DNA of 64,000 nucleotides, from contig NC_021280.1 of assembly GCF_000400935.1 (NCBI RefSeq), forward strand, positions 992,001-1,056,000, written 5' to 3'. This DNA comes from Spiroplasma chrysopicola DF-1. Lineage in GTDB: Bacteria > Bacillota_I > Bacilli_A > Mycoplasmatales > Mycoplasmataceae. Shown here in pieces: positions 370 to 64,000 of this stretch (the first letter of the stretch is position 1; the number at the start of each line of letters is the position of its first letter). The translations under genes and the position numbers were made by a program. Below the pieces are notes generated by a model. It was given only the letters and a program-made list of their open reading frames with translations. It was not told the DNA's origin and ran no database searches.

Positions 370-2328
370 TTACTTATTAAAAAAATCTAAATTATATTTT
401 TTTAAAATACGTTTTTTAATGTTATTAGAATCTTTCTGAATTATATTTATAACTTTTTTCTCATAATTTTTTATAAGCATTATCTTAGGATTATTAATAA
501 TTTCGTTTTTTAAATTGCAAATTTTTAATAACTCTTGTTTATTTTCATTTTCAACAAATGTTGTAATCTCTTTTAATTTTCATTCTTCTAATCTATTCAT
601 TTCATTAATAATAATTTCTTTTAGCTTTTCACTTGAACAATTAATTGTTTCCTGTGTAGATAAATCAAAATCAAAAGTTTTTTTTAATCTTTGTACTTTA
701 TTTTCTTTATAAGAATTTATTATCTTATTTAAATTTTTATTTATATAATTAAAGAAATTTTTATTTATTTCCTTTATTTTATTTTTTATATCATTCTTTT
801 TCCACAAAGGATACAAATCTTTATATACTTCTTCAATAAATAAATCATCAAATAATAACATTTCAATTTCATTACAATCTAAAATTTTTATATTTTCTTC
901 AAAAGTATCTTTATTTTCATCTCTGTCTACTATTCCATATGCTTCCAAATTATATAATTTCTGGTCATTCAGTAATTTTACCTTATTAACTACCTCTTTT
1001 TTTCCACCAGATGGAATAACTTGATATTCTGAAAATAATTCATCAAATATTATTTTGTCGGTTTTTCCCTCACAAAATAAAATTTTTTCCTTAGAACCAT
1101 ATATTTTCATTCAATAATCAGCATCTAATTCTTCTACTGTAACTTTTTTTATATCTCAAAAGGATGGAAAACTGAATGAATTAACTCTAAAAAAAACTGC
1201 ATTTTTCTTAAAAATGTTAACCATTTCAGGACTATGGGATATAAAAATAAATTTTGAATCCACTTTAATTTTAAATATCTCTTTTCAAATTTTTTTATAT
1301 AAAGCTGGATTTAAATGAGTTTCTGGTTCATCAATAAAAATTCAACTATTTGGTTCAGCAATTAAAATATTAGCAATCATTCATAGCGTTTTCTTTTCTC
1401 CATCGCTTAATTCATTTCAACCATATTCAGCTGAGTCATTTTTTGAAAAATTTAACTTTCTTTTTATCATATCTTTTTTTACTTTAATATCGCCAAATAT
1501 TGATTCAAATAATTTAATTATTTTATAGAGTAAAATAGTATCTTTATTTTTTTCCATATCATTTGCTTCATTTGCATCATTTATTAGTGCAGACAAAATT
1601 TTTGATACATCATATACTATTTGACTATAATGTTGTTCATAATTTTTGTCATACATTTTTTTATTATTAATTGTTTCAATTTTTTCATATGTTTCTACTG
1701 CTGATGATAACTGGACATAATTTAAAAAAACATTAGATTGCAGTACTTTAATTTTAATATCAGAAAAAATATTATCTACTAAAAATTTGATTAGTTTAGT
1801 TTTACCAACACCATTTGGGCCAAGAATAAATGCAAGTTGATCATTTTCTTCAAATTCATTAAAAGATATCAAAAAATTAATTAAAAATAACAAATTTTTA
1901 ATTTCTACATATTTTTTATTATAAATTAAATCAGCTAAATATGAAGATTTAAAATTTTTACTATATGTTTTCTTAAAAAAATCTATAACTTCTGATCTTT
2001 GATTTTCTAATAAACAAACTAATTCATAAACATTATATTCATCATTTTCTTTTATATATTCTAAAAGAGCAAAAAAATCATTATTATCTATCAATATAAA
2101 ACTGAACTTATGAATAATACCATTGATAATAAAACTAATTATTTTATTATCTAAGTCCAAAATTCCACTTTCTAAAACTACTTTATAATCTATAGAATTT
2201 AAATCAAATTGATTTAATTGATAAATTTTATTAAAAGAATTCACTCTAAAAAACATATCATTTCCAAATGGAGTTATCATATTCCCCAAAAAAGTGTTAT
2301 GAATTTCTATTTTTTTTAATTCTGACAT
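370..2328 (-). CDS. OLD-family ATPase with C-terminal TOPRIM nuclease domain
   Basis: 652 residues after reading several TGA codons as Trp. An ABC-type ATPase comes first: Walker A GPNGVGKT near residue 170, an ABC signature-like LSDGEKK near 307, Walker B IFIDEPETHLNP and the switch histidine in FISHSPEMV. A TOPRIM domain follows (CEGKTDKIIF, then the acidic GIVDRDEN). This order is that of OLD (overcoming lysogenization defect) nucleases, which act in anti-phage defence, either alone (P2 Old, class 1) or with a UvrD-like helicase (GajA of Gabija, class 2). No helicase partner is visible, although the next gene downstream runs off the window. Inferred role: mobile-element defence or exclusion. 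ATG at 2326-2328, 8 bases after the previous stop. Confidence 0.85.
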
Positions 2329-12114: not shown

Positions 12115-12240
12115 TACCTCACTTTTTTTGATTAAGTGTTCACTTTTTAGTATTTTGTGTTCATAATTTAGCATTTTATGCTCACTTTTTGTCATTTAAT
12201 GTCATATTTTTGTCTTTTTATGTCATTATTTAATTTTCTG
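12115..12240. repeat. six 21-bp direct repeats upstream of the RHH gene
   Basis: Six consecutive units of exactly 21 bp (12115, 12136, 12157, 12178, 12199, 12220). The core TCACTTTTT, or a variant of it, recurs at the same phase, as in GTGTTCACTTTTTAGTATTTT and ATGTCATATTTTTGTCTTTTT. The period is two helical turns, so all units face one side of the DNA. The array fills the gap between the virB4 stop and the RHH start. Probable operator or iteron array. Confidence 0.75.
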
Positions 12241-14902
12241 TTAGTTTAATACCTATTGCTTCTTGTTCAATTTCAGTTAATTCAACATGTAGGCAATGAC
12301 GATTGTAATCCGTTGCCATAAATAACATATCTCCCCTTTGCGCAGTTGCACAAAAGTTAATTTCAGCTGATGATAATCCACCACTTGCCTGGTACAAATC
12401 GCTCACATCCTGTAAATCTTTTTGTTTTAGTTTTAAAATTCCAACATATTGAGCATTGTTCAAAATTGCTGTTGCTTCACGTTCTAATTCAGGGGTTGTT
12501 TTAAAGTCTGATAAATTTTGAGTAACCAACATAACACCCCCATTAAATCCTCTAATCATTTTGACTGTTTCAAATAAGAATTTTAAAGCTTGTGGATTAT
12601 CTCGATCAATAACAACGTGGGCCTCATCAACAGCAAGAATGATTTCATTATTATCATTAAAACGATTATTATTAATTTCATTTCGAATGAAATTTAACAT
12701 TAAGAACATTTGAGCTTTTAAAACATTAGATTGCGATTTTGAATATAAGGTTTGAATGTCTAGCACATTTAATAAGTTATTAGCTAAACTAACGGATGAC
12801 TGCTTATTTCATAAAGCCGCATATTTCCCATACCCGGTAAAATCATATTCAATTGTTTTAATAATTTTATTTAAAAGGATTTCTTCACCCAAATTTGGAA
12901 TTTGTTCTTTTAAAAAGATAACTAAATCACTAAAAATTGGCCAATCATTATTTTTCATTTTTATGATGTTATTTGATTTATTAACCTTTAAAGATAAATA
13001 AAAATCTAATATTTTTTGCAATAAGAATTTTATTTCTTCTTCATTAAAAGATGGTTCTGTAAAACGAAAGAATGTTTCTAGAATTTGTAAATGATCACCA
13101 ATTATCATCTCAATACTAATACTTTTATCAACCGGGGTTTGAATTTGCAAAGGATTAAAATTCCCTTTTGTTCCACTCCCAGCATCAATTCAATTTCCAT
13201 CATGGTAATTACATAAATGGCCAAATTCACGTTTTGGATCAATAATAATTACTTTCCGACCCAGTGCAATATGGTAATTTAGAAATTTGCTAACAGTTGT
13301 TGTTTTACCTCCCCCGGTTGTTCCAATAAAAAAGGCATTAGAATTTTGGTAATCTCCCCCTCGCTTAAACTGATCAGAAAAAACAACATCACCAGTTGAG
13401 TTATAACCAACAAATAAACCTTTTTCATCTTCTAAAGCATTATTTAGAAATGGAAATGAATTACCAATAGTTACACACGGCATTTCGAAAGAATTTGTAT
13501 ATGCTGTTGGGTCAGTTGGTTTGGGTAAAATTCCACTATATCCATCTATTTGTTTAAATAATAGATAATCCATTTTCATATTCTGTTGTTTTAAAAGCAT
13601 TTCAACTCCTTCTTCTGCTTGTTTTAAAGTTTTCTTATCAACACCATAATTTAAAAATAAAACATTAACTCTTTTAATTGTTTCTTCTCCACAAGAAATC
13701 AAATTTACTAAGTTTTCAAAAGATTGGTATTCATTTTCTTTTTCTGAACGATTAACTGTACGTTTTATAGAAAACAAGTTTGTCCGAGCATTGACCATTG
13801 CCCGGTGTAATTGTTCCTTAACAGCATCTAAATTAGTTTTAGCAATGTTTATAATAACTGTACTATCGGTTGCACATAATTTAGCTGCTCAACCATTCTG
13901 AGGATAAATTGGATAATCACGAATTCCTTTTGTTGAATAATAAACATCATTAATTTTAAAGTTATTTTGAGTAAATGTTATATTATCAATTGCTAATAGT
14001 TCATTTAACTTGTTATTATACTCATCTATTTTTTCATTAGAAAACGGTTCATCATATGGGTTAAAAATAAGTTTAATGTTATTTACTAATTCATACTTAC
14101 TAATTTCTTCAGCTCGCAAATTTATTTCATTAATTTTATTTTTAATTAATTTAACAGCTTTAAATAGTTTTGAAACTTCTGTTTCATAAATAAATAAAAT
14201 AAAAGTCTTTGCCGTTTGCGAATATCCTAAAATTCCTTCTTGATCAGAGTATAAGTTTTGATAACCTTCCAATTGTTTTGTTCTGCTATCATAACCATGT
14301 TTAGATAATTTTTTAGACTTTTTTAAGTGTTCCAATTTATTCATGACTGTTTGTAAAAATTTTAAGTTTTTATTCAAATTATGCGGACGCTCTATTTTTA
14401 CTAAACTTAATTGGCAATCAGTTAAACGAAACATATTAGATAATTGTTCTAACTTTAGGATTTGTTCTTCGGGATCTAATGTTGTGATGTTAATTCCTTT
14501 AATTTCTAAGGCACTAATATATCATTTTTTACCACCCTCTAAAACACTAGTCTCAATATAACCATCATATAATTTTCGATAGGGCATTAATAAGGATGTA
14601 TTATTAGATTTTGAATCAATACTAAACTTTTTCTTTTTACTTCAAAAGATGAAACCCCTAATTGCGATCATATAAATTTTGGCATTATATCGTTCAGAAT
14701 TAATTAAAGTTAGCATTAAAAACATAAAAACACTGATGCCAATAATTATTCGAATTGACATTGATAAAAATATTAAATTATAGCCAATAAGAAATGCCGT
14801 TGTAGCATAAATAAGCGTAAATACTAAATCAACAAGGGTAAAATTATCTTTTAACTTTAACTTCTGTTTTTTCAATTGAGGGGCAATGATACTATTATTC
14901 AT
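12230..14902 (-). CDS. VirB3-VirB4 fusion, conjugative transfer ATPase (TraE-like)
   Basis: 890 residues after joining five frame segments through TGA Trp codons. Residues 1-86 are a PrgI/VirB3-like domain with two membrane segments (LVDLVFTLIYATTAFLIG and IIIGISVFMFLMLTLI). The following ~800 residues are a VirB4/TrbE ATPase: Walker A GTTGGGKTTT near 527, Walker B EIILAVDEAH near 755 and the later LVTQNLSDF. It powers assembly or substrate transfer in type IV secretion at the inner face of the membrane. VirB3-VirB4 fusions are known in other systems. Starts 3 bases after the 242-residue gene ends. Confidence 0.92.
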
Positions 14903-17309: not shown

Positions 17310-17336
17310 AAACAAGATTTATTTCAAATCTTGTTT
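17310..17336 (-). terminator. intrinsic terminator after virD4-like gene
   Basis: 11-bp perfect stem AAACAAGATTT / AAATCTTGTTT, loop of 5, then T-run on the minus strand; overlaps the virD4-like stop codon. Confidence 0.8.
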
Positions 17337-19592
17337 ACTTTTATTTATTAAATTTTTGTTTTCTTCCTTATTTATTTTGGTTTGAATATTACGATATTTT
17401 TCAACAATTTCACGTTCTTCCGGAGTTCTTTCACTTGGTGCTTTAGCTAGTAAACTTGTAATATTTGGTAATTCAATCTTTTCTTTGCTTTGTGAAATTT
17501 CTCTTTCGGTTTCATGTTTGACCAAAATATCAACATCAATATTATTTTTACCGGGAACATATGAAAATAAATTAAAGAAATAATCATTCAAGAAATCAAC
17601 AGTATTGATTTCTTTTTCTTTTCGCTCTTTCCCTAGATTAAATTCCTTCGCAAATTTTCAAGCTGATTCCATGTAAACTAATCCTGGATTTTCTTTCGAA
17701 CTAAAAATAATTCCATAAGGATTTCTTAGTTTCATTAAATCCCCGGGTTTAATCAATGGCATTCCCTCTAATCTAGTTTGTGGTGGATTTTTAATAATTT
17801 TCTTTGTTTTTGGATCGCGACTAGTTGTGTAGCTGACAACTTCTACTGTTTGATCACCTAGCATTTTTGAATACATCTCGGCAGTTTGTGTATCGTTTGT
17901 TTGAATATAAATGTTTAAGTTACAGTTGGAGCGAATAATTCCCCCGTTTTCTTTGCCATATTTTTGATCTAATTGTAAAAAATCTTGTAGAATAAGTAAG
18001 AAAAACATCCCTCGACTTCGAGCAACCGTTACGAATCCTTGGAAGTTTGGAATCATCGGCATATTCCCAAATTCATCTAAATAAAATTGAATATCTCTTG
18101 GCAAACGTTTATTAGATTGTGAATTTGCAACTAAAACATTTGCTTTGTACAACTGCGAAACAAATAAACTGGCCAGAATATGGCGGTTAGTTTTTTCATC
18201 AGGTACTATTAAAAATAACGCTTTTGGTTTATCAGTAAATGTAAATAAATTAATATCATTTTTACAGACAATAGTCTGAATTCCGATATCTTGATAAATT
18301 TGTAAGCCCCGATCTAAAGTTGAAAGAATAGAACCCAGTTCTTTATCTCCTGTTTTCAAAGCATTTGACCCTACTATTCGGGCCATTGATTTTAAAGATA
18401 AGGAATTATGTCATTGTTTCATTTTTTGGCGGTCAGCAACTAAAATTCCAATAGTTGGTAAATTAAACATTTCTAGTGTCAATTCGTTAGGGTCTTTATC
18501 CAATATTTCTAGCATTCCTAGCATCAAGCATTTAGCAATGCTTCCGGCCATTGTAGAAAAGTGGTCGTTATCGCTCCCTTTTAATGGCCAAATTGTTAAA
18601 ACTAGATCATTAATTTCTTCAATAGCAAAAGACTTTAATTCTCGTTTCATTGTTTCGCAAAGCAACTCAGCTTTACTTACTTTTCTAAATCACATCTTTT
18701 CAAAAATAGCGACTTGTCCTTTTTCTTCTAGTGAATTTAAACAATCATAACAAAAACTTTCTTCATGATCATAACACTTAATGCCTTTCAATTTTTCTTT
18801 TAACTCTTCTAAATTATTAAAATTAACTCTTTTAATTTGTTCATGCAATGTAACTGAATCATAATAATATTTGAATGCAATAGCTAGTGGATTTCAAGAT
18901 GATGATAATTTAGCATCACGTAAATTTAAGGTCAAAACTTCATATCCCTTTTCTTGCAATGGTTTAGAAAGATTTTGATATAATTCCCCTTTTGGATCTG
19001 TAAAAACCATACATGGTTGTTTTTCAGAGGTTAAATTTGCATTATAAATTGCTGAGGGCATTACTATTTTTTGAGACTTTCCGGAATTTGTCGCCCCTAA
19101 ACAAACAGCATGAGTATTATCTCGAATGTTGAAAACTAGCTCATTTTTGTTTTTAATAAATCTTGTTGCTCAACCAGGCTGCTCAGAATTTATAAGACTA
19201 TGACTAGGATATAGTTCATTAAAATTATCTATTTTACCTTTGTTTTTTAATTCGTTAACAATTCATTTTGCTGCTCCATATTCAGTTGAATCTACTTCTT
19301 TGATATAAACTTTTTCCAATTCTTTTTTAATTAAAATAACCGTAAAAGCTATAGTTCAAAAAATGGTAGTTAGAATTACACATAGCAAAATTATAAAAAC
19401 CGGATTTGTTTTAATAAACAATCATAAAAAATCAAAATATTTAAATAATTTAAACCCTTCCATTTTTCATACTTTCAAAAACGGAATTATTACAATCCCA
19501 ACTCCTAAAACAAAAGGAAATATAATAATAGAGTTAATTAAAGATTCTTTTCTAGGTTTATTTCAAAATTTCTTTTTTTCTTGATTATCCAT
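17319..19592 (-). CDS. VirD4/TraG type IV coupling protein
   Basis: 757 residues, ATG at 19590-19592, with several TGA Trp. Two N-terminal membrane segments (about 20-40 and 60-95), then Walker A GATNSGKS near residue 167, DPKGELY near 202, and the later conserved block with VARSRGMFFLLILQDF typical of TraG/VirD4. An unusual CYDHEESFCYDC insertion carries four Cys/His pairs that might bind metal. The C-terminal ~120 residues are charged. It couples DNA substrate to the secretion channel at the membrane. Start overlaps the end of the 97-residue gene. Confidence 0.92.
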
Positions 19593-55508: not shown

Positions 55509-55539
55509 AAAAACTCCGAATAAATTATTTGGAGTTTTT
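55509..55539. terminator. bidirectional terminator
   Basis: AAAAACTCC / GGAGTTTTT stem shared by the convergent HIT and radical SAM genes; the left T-tract serves the minus-strand operon. Confidence 0.85.
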
Positions 55540-56139
55540 ATTTATATCAAGCTCTTGGTCATTTTTTTCAAATAAATGGGCCCCATCACCATTAATAACT
55601 AGGCTATTAGCCGCAACAGTAAATTCGGCTTCAACAATATTTTGTTCAAAATAATCACTATCAGCATAAGCTGGCGATAGTTTTAAAACCCTTTGATTTG
55701 TTGAGCCAATTAAACGGCGCGTTTTATCTAATTTTTCAATAACAAAGGGTCCATCGATTAAAATATCAATTTTAGCTAAAATATTGGGGTGTTTTTCTAG
55801 TAATAATTCATATAAATAACCGGAAAAAACTAGTGTTGTTAAGTCGTGTGCATGACATAACGCCAAAAATTCTAGTAACGCTTTGGGTTGGATAAAGGGC
55901 TCACCCCCCAAGATAGTAACTCCTTCAATGTCAAAACGGGTTTTTGCATCTAGAACAGCCTTAAATAACTCTTCAACTGGCATAACATTTTTATTTAGTA
56001 ATGGAATCATATCTTGGTTACTACATCCGCGACAATTTAAAATACACCCTTGCATTCACAATGCAAAGCGTTTCCCGGGCCCTTCAATTGTTGTTAAAGA
56101 AACAAAGCGATTAAAATTTATTAAATTACTATTTGTCAT
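55525..56139 (-). CDS. radical SAM activating-type protein (NrdG-like)
   Basis: 204 residues, ATG at 56,137-56,139, one TGA Trp. Cluster motif CILNCRGC (CxxxCxxC) near residue 31, GPGKRFALW upstream, and VTILGGEPFIQPK as the GGE motif, all as in anaerobic ribonucleotide reductase activases. No nrdD is near. It starts 6 bases after the ClpB-like stop, so it is the last gene of the helicase-AAA+ operon and probably acts with it rather than with a reductase. Confidence 0.85.
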
Positions 56140-56145
56140 TAATGT

Positions 56146-57969
56146 TTATCTCAACGCATATTCAATCTGACTGTTACGAACAATTAATTGAATTGTTTGC
56201 CCAGGGCGAAACTGGGCTTGGTTATTGAAAATAAACTCACTTAAACTATCAACAACATGTTGTTCAATACTATTTAATAAGTCCCGTCCACCTTTTTTGT
56301 CATCAGCATCTTGCATAATGATTGGTAACAGTTCATTAACATTCATAAATTCTAAATTTACTTTATATTTTTCTTTAACAGCGAATTGAATTGGTTTTAA
56401 TTTATGTAAAATCAAGGTTGCTTTAAAATGTTCATCTTTAATAAAGTTAAAGGGAACAATATTATTTCCAATTCGCCCTAATAATTCTGGTCGTTTTAAT
56501 TCTGTCCTGAAATGATTAGAAACTTTTTCAATAAATTGTTTTTGAATTTCGGAAAATGGTAATTTATCATCAACTTCACTAGCCCCAATATTTGAAGTAA
56601 AAATAATAAAGGAGTCAGAAAAACTAACTGTTTGACCCTTATTATCTGTTAAGCGCCCATCTTCTAAAATTTGTAAAAACTTATCTAAAATACGGGGGTG
56701 GGCTTTTTCAATTTCATCAAATAATAAAACACTAAATGGTTTTTCCTTAATGGCATTTGTTAGTTGTCCCCCTTCTTCATAACCAACATAACCTGGAGGC
56801 GCTCCAATTAATTTTTGGTCACTAGCTTCTTGATTATATTCAGACATATCAAAACGAATACAATTTTTTTCATCTCCAAATAAAAACTTTGCTAACGCTT
56901 TTGCTAATTCTGTTTTCCCAACTCCAGTTGGACCAACAAAAAATAATGTTCCTTTTGGTTTTGTTCGGCGAGCTGAATATTGGACCCCAGATAGCCCTGT
57001 AAAGGCTTTATAGACAACTTTTTTAACCTTATCAATCGCATGGTCTTGACCAATTACTCGTTTTTTTAATTCTTCATTAATTGTTGCTAATTTTTGGTAA
57101 TTCATTTCTTCTCATGGTGATACTTTTTCCCCGTACTGATATGAATTTAACAGCTTTTCAAATGGTAAGCGTTCAGGAATATTATTTGAGTACTTAATTA
57201 ATTGATAAACTTCTTTTAAAGTTCATCCTTCCATTGTGTCATAGATGTCTTGTAATTTTAAAAGATCTTGGTTTAAATCTTCTGTAATTTTAAAGAAGTT
57301 TTTATTTGTTAAAATAAATTTTTCGCGTTCTTCACGGTTTGGTTTACTTAATGTAATTGTTGTAACATCGGGATTATTTAAATAAAATGATGTTGGTAAT
57401 TTTCCGACATTATTAGTAATAAAAATTAACGCTGTATCAAAATCAATAATTTCTGATTGGTCAAACTTTTTATCACGAAAAGCTTTACTAATTGAGATTA
57501 AGTTAACACGTTCTTCTTCACTTAAACTTTGTTCATTAGAAAATAAATAATCCGAACAATCAGCAATAAAAGCAACTTTTTGAGGACTTGTATCAAGCAT
57601 ATTACGACGAACTATTGCAAAAAATTCGGTAAGGGACGTAAATTGACCTTGTTGTTGGTTTTTATTCTCATTATTACTATTAATCAATTCTTGACCAAAG
57701 TCATAGGCTTCACCAGCTTGGTCTTTTTTAGGGGCATTTTTATCAACTAGCGTTAATTGACTAATATTTCCTCCCGTTAAACCATCAATACGATCCCAAG
57801 TAAAAACTTGATTAAAACCACGTTCTTGCAATAATAATTTAACTTTATCTTTGATGCCTAGATAAGTATTTTTATTTTCATAAATATCATTAACATTACC
57901 TTCAACAATTACACAACGCTTAATTCCAACTTGATTTTTTAATTTATCTAAATTACTTTTAACACTCAT
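56146..57969 (-). CDS. ClpB-like AAA+ ATPase with atypical N-terminal half
   Basis: 607 residues, ATG at 57,967-57,969, four TGA Trp. Residues ~310-500 match the second (AAA_2) ring of ClpB: VIGQDHAIDKV, Walker A GPTGVGKTELAKAL, pore-type APPGYVGYEEGG, Walker B LLFDEIEKAHP, RPELLGRIGNNIVPF. The N-terminal ~250 residues (KRCVIVEGNVNDIY, IISIS..., FITNNVGKLP) look like a second, Walker-A-less AAA fold. No ClpB N-domain or M-domain. Not a plain disaggregase; it probably remodels a protein or nucleoprotein complex with the flanking genes. Partly overlaps nothing; 69 bases separate it from the coiled-coil gene. Confidence 0.85.
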
Positions 57970-58038
57970 TTGCTATTCCTCACTTTAATTTTCTTTTATA
58001 TATTATAATTTTTTTTTGCAGTATTTAAAACCTTTCAT

Positions 58039-59136
58039 CTATTTTTTATCGGTTTTTGTCTTAACGGTCATTTTAGCTTGATTCATAATTTTATCTGGAT
58101 TTAAATAGACCTTATTTTGTTCTTTTGATAATGATACATCATACATTGAAAGATCATTAACAAATGGTTGTTCATCAACATCATGGGCATGACCTTCATA
58201 GCCTTCAAATTTATAGGTAAAACGACCGTCAAGATAAACTTTAAAAATCGCCTCTTCCCCAGTTACTTTTTTAGCATATAAAATAACAACATTATCTTCA
58301 TTTTCTTTAACAAGACGAATATCATTTACATCAACAATAAAACCACGATTTTTAATCGCTTGTAAAATTGAACTAATTGCATGCTTTCGCGCTGATTCAT
58401 CTAATTGTTTATTAATAATTTTCTGTTGTAATTTTAAAGCTGCTGCTGCTAATTCATCTTGACTACTAAAGTCTTGCTGATTAAATTGTTCTAAATCAGC
58501 TATTAACTCAGCTTTAACAAATTTATCTTCAGCAATTTGTTGATTAAAATTGCCTAAATATTGCAATTTAACAAATTCTTGCGACATTTGGAAGTTACTA
58601 ATTTCTGTTTTAACAACTTCGGCAATTTCAGCTGGGGTAAAATTAATAAGTTTTGTTCGATTGTTTTTAAAAAAAGTTAACACAATTGCTTTTGAATTAC
58701 TATCACTAATAGAAGCAACTAACTCTTGTTCTAATTGTTCTAAATTAAGATTAGTTCGCTGTTGTAAATTTGTTAACCGTGCTTTTGTCTCATCTTCAAC
58801 GACTCGAATTTTTAGATTTTCAATATTTTGTTGAATTTCTGCTAATCGCAAGGTTTTTTGTTCTAAAAAAAAGTTAACGCGCTTAGCTAATTCTAAGTCA
58901 ACATGACTAACTTTTGAAAATTCTTTCACTAATTCATTTTCTAATAAATCACGGTGAATTAAATCTAATTCTACTAAATATCCTTCAATTTCTTGGCAAT
59001 TTAAACCACTAACATCAATACTTTGCAGTTGGGTTAATAGTTGCGCTAAATTTTCTTTAATAAAATTAATATTAATTCCTAATCGTTCGATCTTTTTCTG
59101 ATAATTATACATTACCTGCTCAACACTCATACTCAT
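58039..59136 (-). CDS. coiled-coil protein of the helicase-AAA+ operon
   Basis: 365 residues from the first ATG at 59,134-59,136 (second ATG two codons on). Residues 10-250 are almost all helical with coiled-coil stretches rich in Leu, Gln and Asn. The C-terminal ~100 residues form a compact strand-rich domain with VVILYAKKVTGEEAIFKVY and YKFEGYEGHAHDVDEQPF, including a conserved-looking GH-H. It overlaps the 789-residue gene (TAATG). No catalytic motif recognised; possibly adaptor or scaffold. Confidence 0.75.
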   Translation of the reverse strand: MSMSVEQVMYNYQKKIERLGININFIKENLAQLLTQLQSIDVSGLNCQEIEGYLVELDLIHRDLLENELVKEFSKVSHVDLELAKRVNFFLEQKTLRLAEIQQNIENLKIRVVEDETKARLTNLQQRTNLNLEQLEQELVASISDSNSKAIVLTFFKNNRTKLINFTPAEIAEVVKTEISNFQMSQEFVKLQYLGNFNQQIAEDKFVKAELIADLEQFNQQDFSSQDELAAAALKLQQKIINKQLDESARKHAISSILQAIKNRGFIVDVNDIRLVKENEDNVVILYAKKVTGEEAIFKVYLDGRFTYKFEGYEGHAHDVDEQPFVNDLSMYDVSLSKEQNKVYLNPDKIMNQAKMTVKTKTDKK

Positions 59137-61505
59137 TATTTAAACACCTCTTTGATTTCTTGATATCATTTATTAATTAGATCCCGGTTCTTGGCTGGGA
59201 CAACTTCATTACGCCCTTGGTCACAATATAGATAAAGTTTTAATTCTTCATACAAATCAATAATTCTTTTTGCTTGGTCTTTTGACCCCTCTTTTTTTAA
59301 AATAAATAATTTTTCATTTAAATACTTAACACCTTGCATTTTATCTTTTAGCAAGTGATCAAGCTTTTCTTCTAATAAATTAGCCAAATATAAGGCTGCT
59401 CTTCCTCAGGTTCCAGCCTCTAAATACTCTTGAAATTTGGCCTCGGAATTAAACATATTTTCATATTTAATCATACGGAACTTGTACTCTAATTTTGAAA
59501 GGACATGTAATAATTGCAACGATAAGTCAAAACTTGTTTCAAAATGACTAAACCGTTCAATAATAACACTGACAAAAGACCAAATTGTTGGTCAATAACG
59601 TTGGATATTATTAATATCACGGCGGTTCATTTCTCCAAGATATTTCAAATAATCGGCGGTAAAACTATATAAATAATTTAATAATTGGACATCCCCGGTT
59701 GGTTGACGATATTTATTAAAATATTGTTCAATGTTATCAACACTAAGAGCAAATAAAACTTTGTTTAAAATATGAAAAAGATTTTGATTCCAAATTTTTT
59801 CTAACACAACGGGGTCACACTGGACTGATAGTTCTAGTAATTCTTCTAAGGAAACGTTATTTTTATTATAATATTTTTGCAAAATTGTCAGAACTTCTTT
59901 TGCTGGAAGAATATTTTGTTGGCTTAAAATTCGATAGGCCTCAATAATGTTGGTACTTGTTGTTGTTATCTGTTCTAATAACTTTAATAATGAAGAATGA
60001 ATTAAATTTTGATAATTTGGTTTTTGTTGGAACGCTTTTGTTTTTTCCTGTCAACTTTGTAAAAAACTAACTTTATTTGGATAATCGCTTGTCACAACAA
60101 TTTTAATGAACCCGAGCATTGCATCTTCATTATCATTTAATAAATCTAATAAATAAATAAACATTAAAATAAGTTCATCTTGGTTTTGGTCAGCTAATTC
60201 TGTCCATTTGCTAATTAAATATTTACTTTGCTCAATTAATTGTTTGGCAATTGCTTTATAAATTCCTGCCCCATAATCATCTTGATATTTGTTCACTAAT
60301 GTTAAATTTTTATTATATGTAATTAAATCTAATTTTTGAAAATTATAAACTTCTGATTGTTGTTTATAATTAGCAAAAATAATTAAAAATTCTTTTGTTA
60401 AATTAAATTCATTTGTGGCAAAATGAAAGATTGGCAAAGAACCTGATAAATCAGTTAAAGTTGTTTTCTTATCATTATTAACCAAAATTAAACAACTAAA
60501 ATTATTTAAGTGATAATATTTTTGCGTCAAAAGTTTTTCTTCTTTCAAAAGATCACTATTAACAATTGCAATCTTCGCATTTAGTAATATTGGATTAATC
60601 ATCCGCGGATCTTGATAATAATCTGCTTCAAAAGCACTAGCTGGAATTTGACGATTAGATAATACAAAATCTTGTTTTAAATCATAATTAATTGTATCGA
60701 TAAAAAATGATGTAATTTTTTCGCGCAGCGGTTGGCTACTATCTATTAAATTTTGAATTTGAGGATTATTAACATACATCTTAAGATCTTTAAAAGTTGT
60801 TAAGGTTAAATTAACTTCAACAATTTCATATTCCTCAACAGTGTAATGTCCTAAATCAAAATCTGTCTGTGAATTAGTCAAATGTTCTTTTCCAATTCGT
60901 AAACTATTAAAAATTGTATCTTTATTAAAGTTGAAAACACTTTGACCACTTTTTTTGACAGTTTCTAAAACATTTAATAAATCATTAATATTAATTTTTG
61001 TTATTGTTGGTGCTGTAATTTTTAACTGTTCATTTGTTACCGTTGCTATTAACTCTAAACGGGAGGGATTAATTATTATTTCACCACTAAAATCATCAAT
61101 TAAAAATTCAATTGCTATTTCTTTTTGTTGATTTTTTCCAATTAAAAAACCTTTTTCTAATGTATTTAGCCCTGCTGGGGAAATGTAAAAAATTCCAATT
61201 GCACTATCAATTCAATCTGTTTTATTATAACTTGCTGAAAGATAATTAAATGAGGTTTGGGTATCAATTTCAATAATTTCTTCTTTTTCAATTAAATCTT
61301 TTAAACACTCCTGATAAATTCGCAAATTTTGGAGTTGTAATTCTTGTTGTAAAATATCTTTTAGCGAGGCATTTTTATCTGGATAATTTGCAATCGCATT
61401 TAAAATTAGATACTGAAAAAAAGATGGTCGTTTTGGTGTTTGATAACCCACCATGACTGATAGTTTTCTTCATTTTTTAAATATTTTAACGACCCCTATT
61501 TTCAT
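59136..61505 (-). CDS. large helical protein of the helicase-AAA+ operon
   Basis: 789 residues, ATG at 61,503-61,505 (a later in-frame ATG GTG is possible), joined through many TGA. An N-terminal segment (FFQYLILNAIANYPDKNASL, residues ~30-90) could be a winged helix; a strand-rich middle has YYHLNNFSCLILVNNDKKTT; the last 350 residues are helical repeats. No P-loop or nuclease motif recognised. It starts 4 bases after the helicase stop. Possible substrate-recognition subunit. Confidence 0.75.
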
Positions 61506-61509
61506 TTTC

Positions 61510-64000
61510 TTACTCCTTTACATTCTCACAAATATCTTCAGCTGTTCAGACATTCCCAAATGTCCGAATAATCTTAATAATCTCATCATAAACTCTTGTT
61601 AATTTTGTTAAAACTGGGTTCATTATTGTCGGAATTTCTACTTCAATATTTGCAAAAAAATTAATTGCTCCAATAATTACTAGCATATTTTTGGCCCGGG
61701 AAAAAGCAACATTTAATCTTTCATATTTCTGAACAAATTCCTTGTTAGCCCGAGCTTGATTTTTTGGATGACGAACAGTATTAACAATAACAATATCACT
61801 TTCACGCCCTTGATAATCATCAACAGTTGAAATTTCTAAACTAATATTTTTTAATTTCACCGTTTGTAAAGCCTTACGTAATTTCTTAACATGCAAACCA
61901 TAAAAACTAATCACAGCAACATTTGGTTTATGTGTTAACTTAGCTGGTAAAGCACCATAACCTTGATCGATTAATTTTAATGTTGCTATTGTCAATTCAA
62001 TTTCTAACCAGTTAAACAAACTTGTACTTCCTGCTTCGCCTTGTTCATAAACTAATTCTTGATTTATATCACGAGAGGAATCTAATCAGTAAATTGCTTT
62101 ATTTGAACTAAAAATTATTGGTTGTTGATTATTACCAACATTTAGATAATGTTGTTTTTGCAAGTTTTGATGTGTCGGATCTCCTAATTGTAACTGATTT
62201 TCATAAAAAACATTAACAACTTTCATAATATCTCCATGACTGCGATATTGTTCAACTAAAATTCCTTTAACCGAATCATCACATTGTGAAATTAGCTTTT
62301 TGAACATTGATTGTGTTACTAATTGTGTAAAATCAAAATAGCTATAATTTTCATGGTATAATTCATTAATTTTGCTAACATCGCTTTCTTGGAATTGCAT
62401 CAGTGGCGGTAATTGACGGTAATCGCCCACTAAAACAACAGCTTTTCCATATACTAATGGCATTAAAATTTCCATTGGCGTTAATTTACTTACTTCATCA
62501 ATAATAACCACATCAAAACTAAAACTCTTAATATCAATATCACTAATATTATAATCGGCTAAAATTTTATTTTTACTTTGTAAATAAATTTGATTTGAAG
62601 TTGCCGTCATTGCCACAACATTAACATTATTTTGTAAAAACTGATTAGCATAAGTCTTCGTATCTTTTTCTAATGCTGAGTTAAAAATATTATTGTTAAA
62701 GTTTTCCCCGGTTAAAAATTGCGCCATTTGATAATTCCGGTCTAAAAAGTTAATCATATTATTAACAAACTTTCCTTTCGCAATTTTTTCTTTTTGAATT
62801 GTTTTAATTTCCTGGTCAAGGTTAACAATAATTTCGTCTAACTCATTAATTGTTGTCGTAATATCTTTAATATTTAATGTCAGATTAAAAATTTGATTAA
62901 TGTTGTAAACAATATTTTCAACATCAACTTTTAACTGGTTAATTTTTTGTTCTAAACCATTAAATTCGGTTTCTAAATAAAATAACTCTTGGTCTGTTTG
63001 ATTTTCTTCTGCTGTTGCTATTAATTTTTCATTATCCTTAATTTGATTTTGATATTTATATTTTAAGGCCTCTAACCCTACTTGTAACTCCCTAACTTGT
63101 TGGAGATGCACAACATTGCCTTGTTTTAAACTAGTTTGTTTTTGTAAATTAATAATTGCTTCATTTAATGTTAATAATTGTGTCGCTCAATTATCATCGC
63201 GATAAGCTGGTTCAACTTGTTTTAACACCATCAATTGTGCTTTTTTATCAGCAATTGCGTTGATTGTTTCTGGATCTAAACTATCGGCTAATAATTGACG
63301 ATAAACTTCCGGAATTGAATAGGAAACATCAAAATCTAAATTTAGTTTTTCATGAATTAAAGTTCCAAAATGCTGATTAAATAAAGTTGTTAAATCATTG
63401 GTATTTTGAACATGACCATTTCACTCAGAATCATTTAATAATTCCTGAAAATTATCAATGTTATTAATTTCAACTAATAATTTTTTATTATGATTTTTTA
63501 GTTTTAATAAATTTGTCAAATTTTCTTCTTGGGTTGTTTTTAACCTTAAGATTTTACTTTCTAATTCTTGATACTCCTTAATTTCTTTTGCCAGCATTTT
63601 TGCATTAGCCTTTAAATTTTGTAAAGCTTCTTTTTGCAATAGATATTGGTCATCAATCCCTTCTCATTTTGTTAAATATTCGAGGGTTAAATAGGAATAC
63701 ATAAAACGATAGTTATTAAAAACAACCCGATCAGGATTAAAATCATTGAAACGATTCTTTTTCCGCACTTCTTCACCTGTTAAGCGTAATGGGACAATCA
63801 AAGGTGATTTAAAAAGGCGGGTTAAAACATTATCAATTGCCGTATGATTTTGCGAAGAAATTAAAACTTTTTTATTTAATTTTGCATATTGATAAACCAA
63901 TTCTGCAATAAACTCTGTTTTTCCAGTTCCTGGTGGCCCTTGTAGTAAAAAGATATCTTGAGAATTTAGCGCTTTAACAATCGCCGCTTTTTGACTGTTA
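61510..64000 (-). CDS. UPF1-like superfamily 1 helicase (5' part beyond window)
   Basis: At least 830 codons, continuing past the right edge. Walker A QGPPGTGKTEFIAELVYQYA near 63,930; DEVSKLTP (Walker B) near 62,500; VLVGDYRQLPP near 62,420; motif V TVDDYQGRESDIVIVNTVR near 61,800; motif VI ERLNVAFSRAKNML near 61,710. AAA_11/AAA_12 (DNA2/NAM7/UPF1) type. A ~270-residue coiled-coil insertion separates motif I from motif II (about 63,640-62,730). Nucleic-acid unwinding from this class is on RNA or DNA; the substrate here is unknown. First seen gene of the five-gene operon. Confidence 0.9.

Follow-up and report, generated by a model that had tools for sequence, protein, structure and literature searches.

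Among described systems, Mokosh types I and II (MkoA/MkoB/MkoC) come closest to the locus presented here, a five-gene operon of Spiroplasma chrysopicola DF-1 that lies in a stretch of 64,000 nucleotides (in the following "the window", positions 992001-1056000 of the complete 1.12-Mb chromosome). Both have a COG1112/UPF1-like helicase of the MkoA family and a helicase-plus-nuclease logic, and the N-terminal domain of the second gene product, in copies on proteobacterial plasmids, weakly resembles the N-terminus of MkoB. However, the nuclease of the operon family is of PIN or HEPN-motif type, with none recognisable in Spiroplasma, whereas a PLD-like domain is listed for Mokosh type I and II (PMC10952713). 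In addition, the operon family has three further conserved genes, encoding the gene 3 protein, a radical SAM protein and a Clp-type ATPase whose first ring is dead. Since the PLD nuclease is absent and these three genes are present, the system is best classed as a variant within the Mokosh-like kind that pairs helicase and nuclease, rather than as Mokosh proper.

Kaur et al. (2020) described AAA-based conflict systems with vWA-MoxR cores, some of them with helicase-PIN or radical SAM components (PMC7159879). The operon shares with these vWA-MoxR and FtsH ternary systems an AAA+ regulator and exchangeable effectors, but the five-gene block has no vWA or MoxR component. The fourth gene product resembles ClpB/ClpC disaggregases and unfoldases, its second ring matching nucleotide-binding domain (NBD) 2 of ClpB and its first ring aligning to NBD1; unlike them, it has no N-domain, no M-domain and no Walker A motif in ring 1, and in the loci read it is tied to conflict-type operons. 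It also matches the DolB profile of Dodola and the PDC-M37B profile of the PADLOC candidate PDC-M37, but the five proteins match no other component of these systems in PADLOC, DolA included. In eukaryotic nonsense-mediated decay the UPF1 helicase is paired with the PIN nuclease SMG6, and the UPF1-type helicase and PIN nuclease of the proteobacterial copies may be compared with this pair by way of analogy only. A full-text literature search, with most subscription papers and bioRxiv outside its scope, returned no description of the five-gene composition, so that the combination seems to be undescribed so far. The preliminary description of this DNA knew of no such system; as regards relationship this is too strong, since both the helicase and the gene 2 protein suggest a link to Mokosh.

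Operon structure and distribution

From the sequence comparisons below, we consider it fairly probable that the operon belongs to a conflict system that is Mokosh-like, widespread and undescribed, and probably directed against phages or plasmids. Its reading frames require genetic code 4 (TGA = Trp): under table 11 TGA codons break the genes, whereas under table 4 all five are intact. The genes are, in order of transcription:

61510 to beyond the window end (61510-64000 inside), minus strand: gene 1, helicase of UPF1/MkoA type (AAA_11/AAA_12, PADLOC MkoA)
59136-61505, minus strand: gene 2, adaptor/effector protein of 789 amino acids (aa), with an N-terminal domain common to relatives with a PIN domain or HEPN motif
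58039-59136, minus strand: gene 3, protein of 365 aa with a conserved C-terminal domain
56146-57969, minus strand: gene 4, ClpB/ClpC-type protein of 607 aa (AAA_2, Walker A and B in ring 2)
55525-56139, minus strand: gene 5, radical SAM protein (Fer4_12) of 204 aa with a CxxxCxxC motif

Intergenic distances from gene 1 to gene 5 are 4, -1, 69 and 6 bases. The preliminary description had reported dense packing on one strand, with overlaps or gaps of 4-70 bases; this was confirmed, and its coordinates are correct, the helicase merely running past the window end. The arrangement is real and not a product of chance, because the genes keep their order on proteobacterial plasmids and in Bacilli as well as in Spiroplasmataceae; the preliminary description had named unlinked genes in related genomes as a refutation, and the genes are linked there. 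Throughout the 15 loci read the order is identical, apart from interruptions in some Spiroplasma.

A tblastn search of plasmids with the ClpB-like protein gave full-length matches of 41-46% identity in Acinetobacter, Photobacterium, Polaromonas, Moellerella and Leisingera. On each of these five plasmids the neighbours are annotated as AAA domain-containing (the helicase), PIN domain-containing, hypothetical, AAA family ATPase and 4Fe-4S single cluster domain proteins. Five unrelated proteobacterial plasmids thus carry the same five-gene system in the same order, and gene 3 of Moellerella, used as a query, likewise led to five plasmid lineages. When the C-terminal domain of gene 3 was searched as a profile, strong matches came from the genomes of six Bacilli and of one more Mollicute, and weak ones from mycoplasmas. 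Complete five-gene sets were found in four Bacilli loci (L092, L093, L094, L095) and in the Mollicute (L098); in another Bacilli locus (L097) the radical SAM gene of the set is truncated, and L096 has a partial set. The mycoplasma loci L101, L102, L106 and L108 have a form of four genes, from which the radical SAM gene is missing; mycoplasma locus L099 ends at a contig edge. These data support the view that the five genes act as a unit in three groups of bacteria.

A modular effector

Gene 2 is, by profile comparison, a modular protein with a constant N-terminal domain and an exchangeable C-terminus across the three groups. The N-terminal homology extends over about 400 columns between Spiroplasma and Bacilli (probability 96.5, E 9.6e-10), about 215 columns between Bacilli and plasmids (E 2.8e-6) and about 218 columns between Spiroplasma and plasmids (E 1.4e-5). 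All five plasmid proteins end in a PIN_4 domain (E 7e-24 to 3e-6) whose acidic residues are invariant among them. The seven Bacilli-type proteins instead carry RNxxxH near the C-terminus (RNSLIH, RNDVAH, RNANVH, RNGFQH, RNAFVH, RNSLIH, RNVYTH); R, N and H are invariant in their alignment, and one mycoplasma copy has RNGIFH. By motif and position we assign this as a putative HEPN signature. PIN and HEPN domains are both classically RNases. For the HEPN-type protein, no solved structure was found by sequence.

The protein of 789 residues had been described as belonging to no recognised family. This does not stand, since its N-terminal domain is common to relatives with a PIN domain or HEPN motif and weakly to MkoB. 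For the 365-residue product of gene 3, a search by sequence found no solved structure; its C-terminal domain (approximately residues 229-352) is conserved into Proteobacteria (hhalign against the plasmid copies: probability 98.9, E 2.3e-17), while the N-terminal part is divergent. A DUF2997-like identity of this domain was considered and rejected, as 1 of 10 members matched, at E 0.02.

Helicase and ClpB-like ATPase

Read from the genome beyond the window, the helicase has 1297 aa and a TTG start (L007 7010-10903); the window contains its C-terminal 829 residues, the start lying about 1.4 kb further on. It is a superfamily 1 helicase of UPF1/IGHMBP2/SEN1 type with AAA_11/AAA_12 domain matches, and SMUBP-2, DNA2, SEN1 and UPF1 are its nearest solved structures. 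Its motifs are legible (QGPPGTGKT, IIDEVS, VGDYRQLPP, TVDDYQGRESDIVIVN, VAFSRAK), in agreement with the intact motifs noted previously. In three relatives an HTH-like (helix-turn-helix) protein of about 180 aa, perhaps a regulator, directly precedes the helicase (L071 2100-2639, L097 1490-2026, L098 971-1513).

Residues 288-1271 of the helicase match the PADLOC MkoA profile with E 3.2e-92. Together with the MkoB match of the plasmid gene 2 N-domain, this could mean a plain Mokosh type I with accidental neighbours. We consider this improbable: a PLD domain was not matched in gene 2 of the Spiroplasma, plasmid or Bacilli groups, and genes 3-5 are not accidental, because they accompany genes 1 and 2 in unrelated bacteria. 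The plasmid match falls on the N-terminus of MkoB, the PLD region being a later part of that protein. When the MkoB profile was used for scanning, most matches were generic PLD ones. Positions 8-200 of the profile also match G475:C5:66503-67072, in a Bacilli locus (L120 1144-15123, genome G475) where open reading frames (ORFs) resembling vWA, phosphatase and kinase proteins precede a helicase and a 706-aa protein.

The ClpB-like protein consists of two rings. By sequence, ring 2 (residues 287-607) is of the active AAA+ type, with Walker A GPTGVGKT, Walker B LLFDEIEK and an AAA_2 match of E 9e-54, and ring 1 (residues 1-286) has lost its ATP site: Walker A is present in ring 2 of all 37 homologues and in ring 1 of none. 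In the predicted model (predicted local distance difference test, pLDDT, 67; predicted template modelling score, pTM, 0.60), residues 2-491 align to both rings of ClpC/ClpB, with ring 1 on NBD1, and residues 281-491 match ClpB NBD2 with a Z score of 21.9. No Clp_N match was obtained, and there is no room for an M domain, ring 2 beginning directly at about residue 287; the reported absence of both ClpB domains is thus correct. The reported intactness of the AAA+ motifs applies to ring 2; the protein is more than a shortened ClpB, as its residues 1-286 form a first AAA ring that has no P-loop. The housekeeping ClpB is encoded by a gene distinct from that of the operon. On an Aristaeella plasmid (L068 1137-18999), a pair of ClpB-like and 4Fe-4S proteins occurs together with a DUF4011 helicase, Ser/Thr kinases, an FHA protein and a phosphatase, which suggests a wider family of conflict systems around the ClpB-like ATPase.

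Radical SAM protein

The CxxxCxxC motif of gene 5 (C32, C36, C39) is invariant, and the protein matches Fer4_12. Its closest families are NrdG and PflA, the NrdG score being under the curated cut-off. On this similarity it might be supposed that gene 5 activates a glycyl-radical enzyme and that the operon serves anaerobic metabolism, but this is very improbable: none of the genes read in the operon or at related loci was recognised as encoding a glycyl-radical enzyme, in line with the earlier remark that no reductase is nearby, and the pyruvate formate-lyase (PFL) of the genome has its own activase elsewhere on the chromosome, so that gene 5 is not needed for it. Since four-gene systems without the radical SAM gene exist, gene 5 is not indispensable to the architecture.

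In two Spiroplasma loci (L032 2338-3444, L034 921-2048) the radical SAM frame runs into thiol-peroxidase-like sequence, about 370 aa in total, a possible fusion. The PFL locus of S. chrysopicola (L123 1614-8703, chromosome about 735,100-742,200) was labelled as a split or rescued PFL: its core gene of 688 aa lacks the glycyl-radical end, an IS-like (insertion sequence) transposase follows it, and a separate glycyl-radical (GrcA-like) ORF of 86 aa lies upstream of the PFL activase and AdhE.

Genomic neighbourhood and probable conflict role

An IMG/VR contig (L071) carries all five genes downstream of a serine recombinase. At other loci the neighbours encode a DpdE/ZorD-like SNF2 protein (L098) or a member of the DarT family (L063), and L066 has integrases, ArdA and a restriction S subunit. 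One Spiroplasma (G095; L103 3051-18451) has a second copy in the four-gene form without the radical SAM gene, adjoining an HNH protein, a fused C5/N4-N6 methylase and an NgoFVII-type PLD restriction helicase. With the N-domain of the ClpB-like protein as query, a scan of IMG/VR gave no match.

A conflict role is favoured because the genes are carried on plasmids and near recombinases or integrases, because nuclease domains are exchanged on a constant adaptor and there is similarity to MkoA and MkoB, and because of the neighbours, namely methylase and restriction-type enzyme, DpdE/ZorD-like SNF2 protein, DarT, restriction S subunit and ArdA. The single machine proposed in the preliminary description is thus retained in so far as the five genes form one unit across three groups and a conflict role is favoured; its quality-control version lacks support.

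In such a system the helicase would sense, or load on, foreign or aberrant RNA or DNA. The module of gene 3 and the Clp protein may then remodel or release the effector, with ATP used in ring 2, and the gene 2 nuclease would degrade RNA and halt either the invader or the cell itself. The radical SAM protein might be an accessory, modifying component or product, and this is the least certain step.

Inheritance in Spiroplasma

Several observations weigh against a conflict system. The 365-aa protein is present in 13 of 14 Spiroplasma genomes (S. chrysopicola and 12 others), the exception being G007, and in several other Spiroplasmataceae. Phylogenetic trees indicate vertical inheritance of the operon within the genus, because the supported groups of the helicase and rplM+rpsI trees of 11 Spiroplasma agree and the single-copy ClpB-like genes form one clade (support 100/99). 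All five genes are under purifying selection there, unlike a patchy defence gene. The ratio of non-synonymous to synonymous substitution rates (dN/dS) ranges from 0.005 to 0.24 in nearly all comparisons; the closest pair gives 0.36-0.40 for genes 2 and 3, where rplM also has 0.39. Gene 4 evolves slowest (0.005 between S. chrysopicola and G008) and gene 2 fastest in most pairs. No PIN domain was matched in gene 2 of S. chrysopicola, and none of the 12 single-copy Spiroplasma gene 2 proteins examined has RNxxxH. Outside the genus, the HEPN assignment of the Bacilli-type proteins has no Pfam match and rests on motif and position, the MkoB profile matches only two plasmid N-domains and these weakly (E 1.1e-5 and 1.4e-4), with no match to Spiroplasma gene 2 (PADLOC) or to the HEPN-type proteins, and the defence-gene neighbours are raw observations without a background rate. 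Phage and E. coli collections contained no copy of the operon, only partial Clp matches.

The Spiroplasma data speak for a domesticated housekeeping machine in this genus, that is, an ancestral conflict system minus its nuclease, kept for quality control of RNA/ribonucleoprotein or of proteins, or for living in the insect host: the operon has a single origin, is vertically inherited and constrained in all five genes, occurs in 13 of the 14 genomes and has no recognisable nuclease. We nevertheless regard this as rather unlikely. The operon is absent from one congener (G007), whose sole ClpB is the housekeeping ClpB, and from several other genera of the family: the ClpB-like N-domain profile has 39 carriers in the family but none in genera g2-g5, g9 and g10. 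It is also interrupted. Extra genes lie between genes 3 and 4 in G009 and G004, with genes 4 and 5 following them; in G005 genes are inserted at the same place and gene 2 is split into two frames; in G002 genes 1-3 and genes 4-5 are about 56 kb apart. The single block described previously is kept in its order, but in several Spiroplasma an insertion parts genes 1-3 from genes 4-5. Because insertions and losses occur in some species, we argue that the operon is not essential in Spiroplasma.

Gene 2 may also hold an unrecognised nuclease, its AlphaFold model being poor (pLDDT 44.7, pTM 0.29); the C-terminal half is all-helical in this low-confidence model. The Spiroplasma effector would have either an unrecognised active site or a lost nuclease. 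An RNE...KNR patch at the C-terminus, conserved in the clade of S. chrysopicola, was considered as a degenerate HEPN but not called as such, because profile comparison with the HEPN region fails (hhalign probability 0.3%).

Other features of the locus

Upstream of the operon, the order on the minus strand is rplM, rpsI, an AT-rich hairpin 3' of rpsI that was seen by eye only, and then the five genes; promoter and terminator scans remained at about the level of shuffled sequence. A block of the window resembles an integrative conjugative element (370-27693, minus strand) and further contains a KAP NTPase, a C5-cytosine methylase and a topoisomerase I. The individual features are:

L007 11435-11875, minus strand: rplM, upstream of the operon
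L007 11021-11422, minus strand: rpsI, upstream of the operon
window 12230-14902, minus strand: VirB4/TraG-type ATPase of the element-like block
window 17319-19592, minus strand: VirD4/TraG coupling protein of the element-like block
window 370-2328, minus strand: AAA_21+DUF4435 OLD-like ATPase of the element-like block

Implications

One inheritable block, found from mycoplasmas to Proteobacteria, brings together a helicase of UPF1 type, PIN/HEPN effectors that can be exchanged, a radical SAM enzyme and a Clp motor whose first ring is dead. Should it prove to act in defence, the Mokosh kind would be extended by a radical SAM component and an unfoldase, and sensor and killer parts could be separated experimentally because the effector is exchangeable. 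Repurposing in Spiroplasma is possible because of vertical inheritance, constraint and the lack of a recognisable nuclease: tentatively, and with considerable doubt, a mobile five-gene immune system may have become fixed in this lineage, mostly beside rplM-rpsI, lost its RNase site and turned into a conserved machine of helicase, unfoldase and radical SAM protein whose new role would be cellular or host-related. Spiroplasma thus offers a case for how a reduced genome retains or repurposes an immune system.

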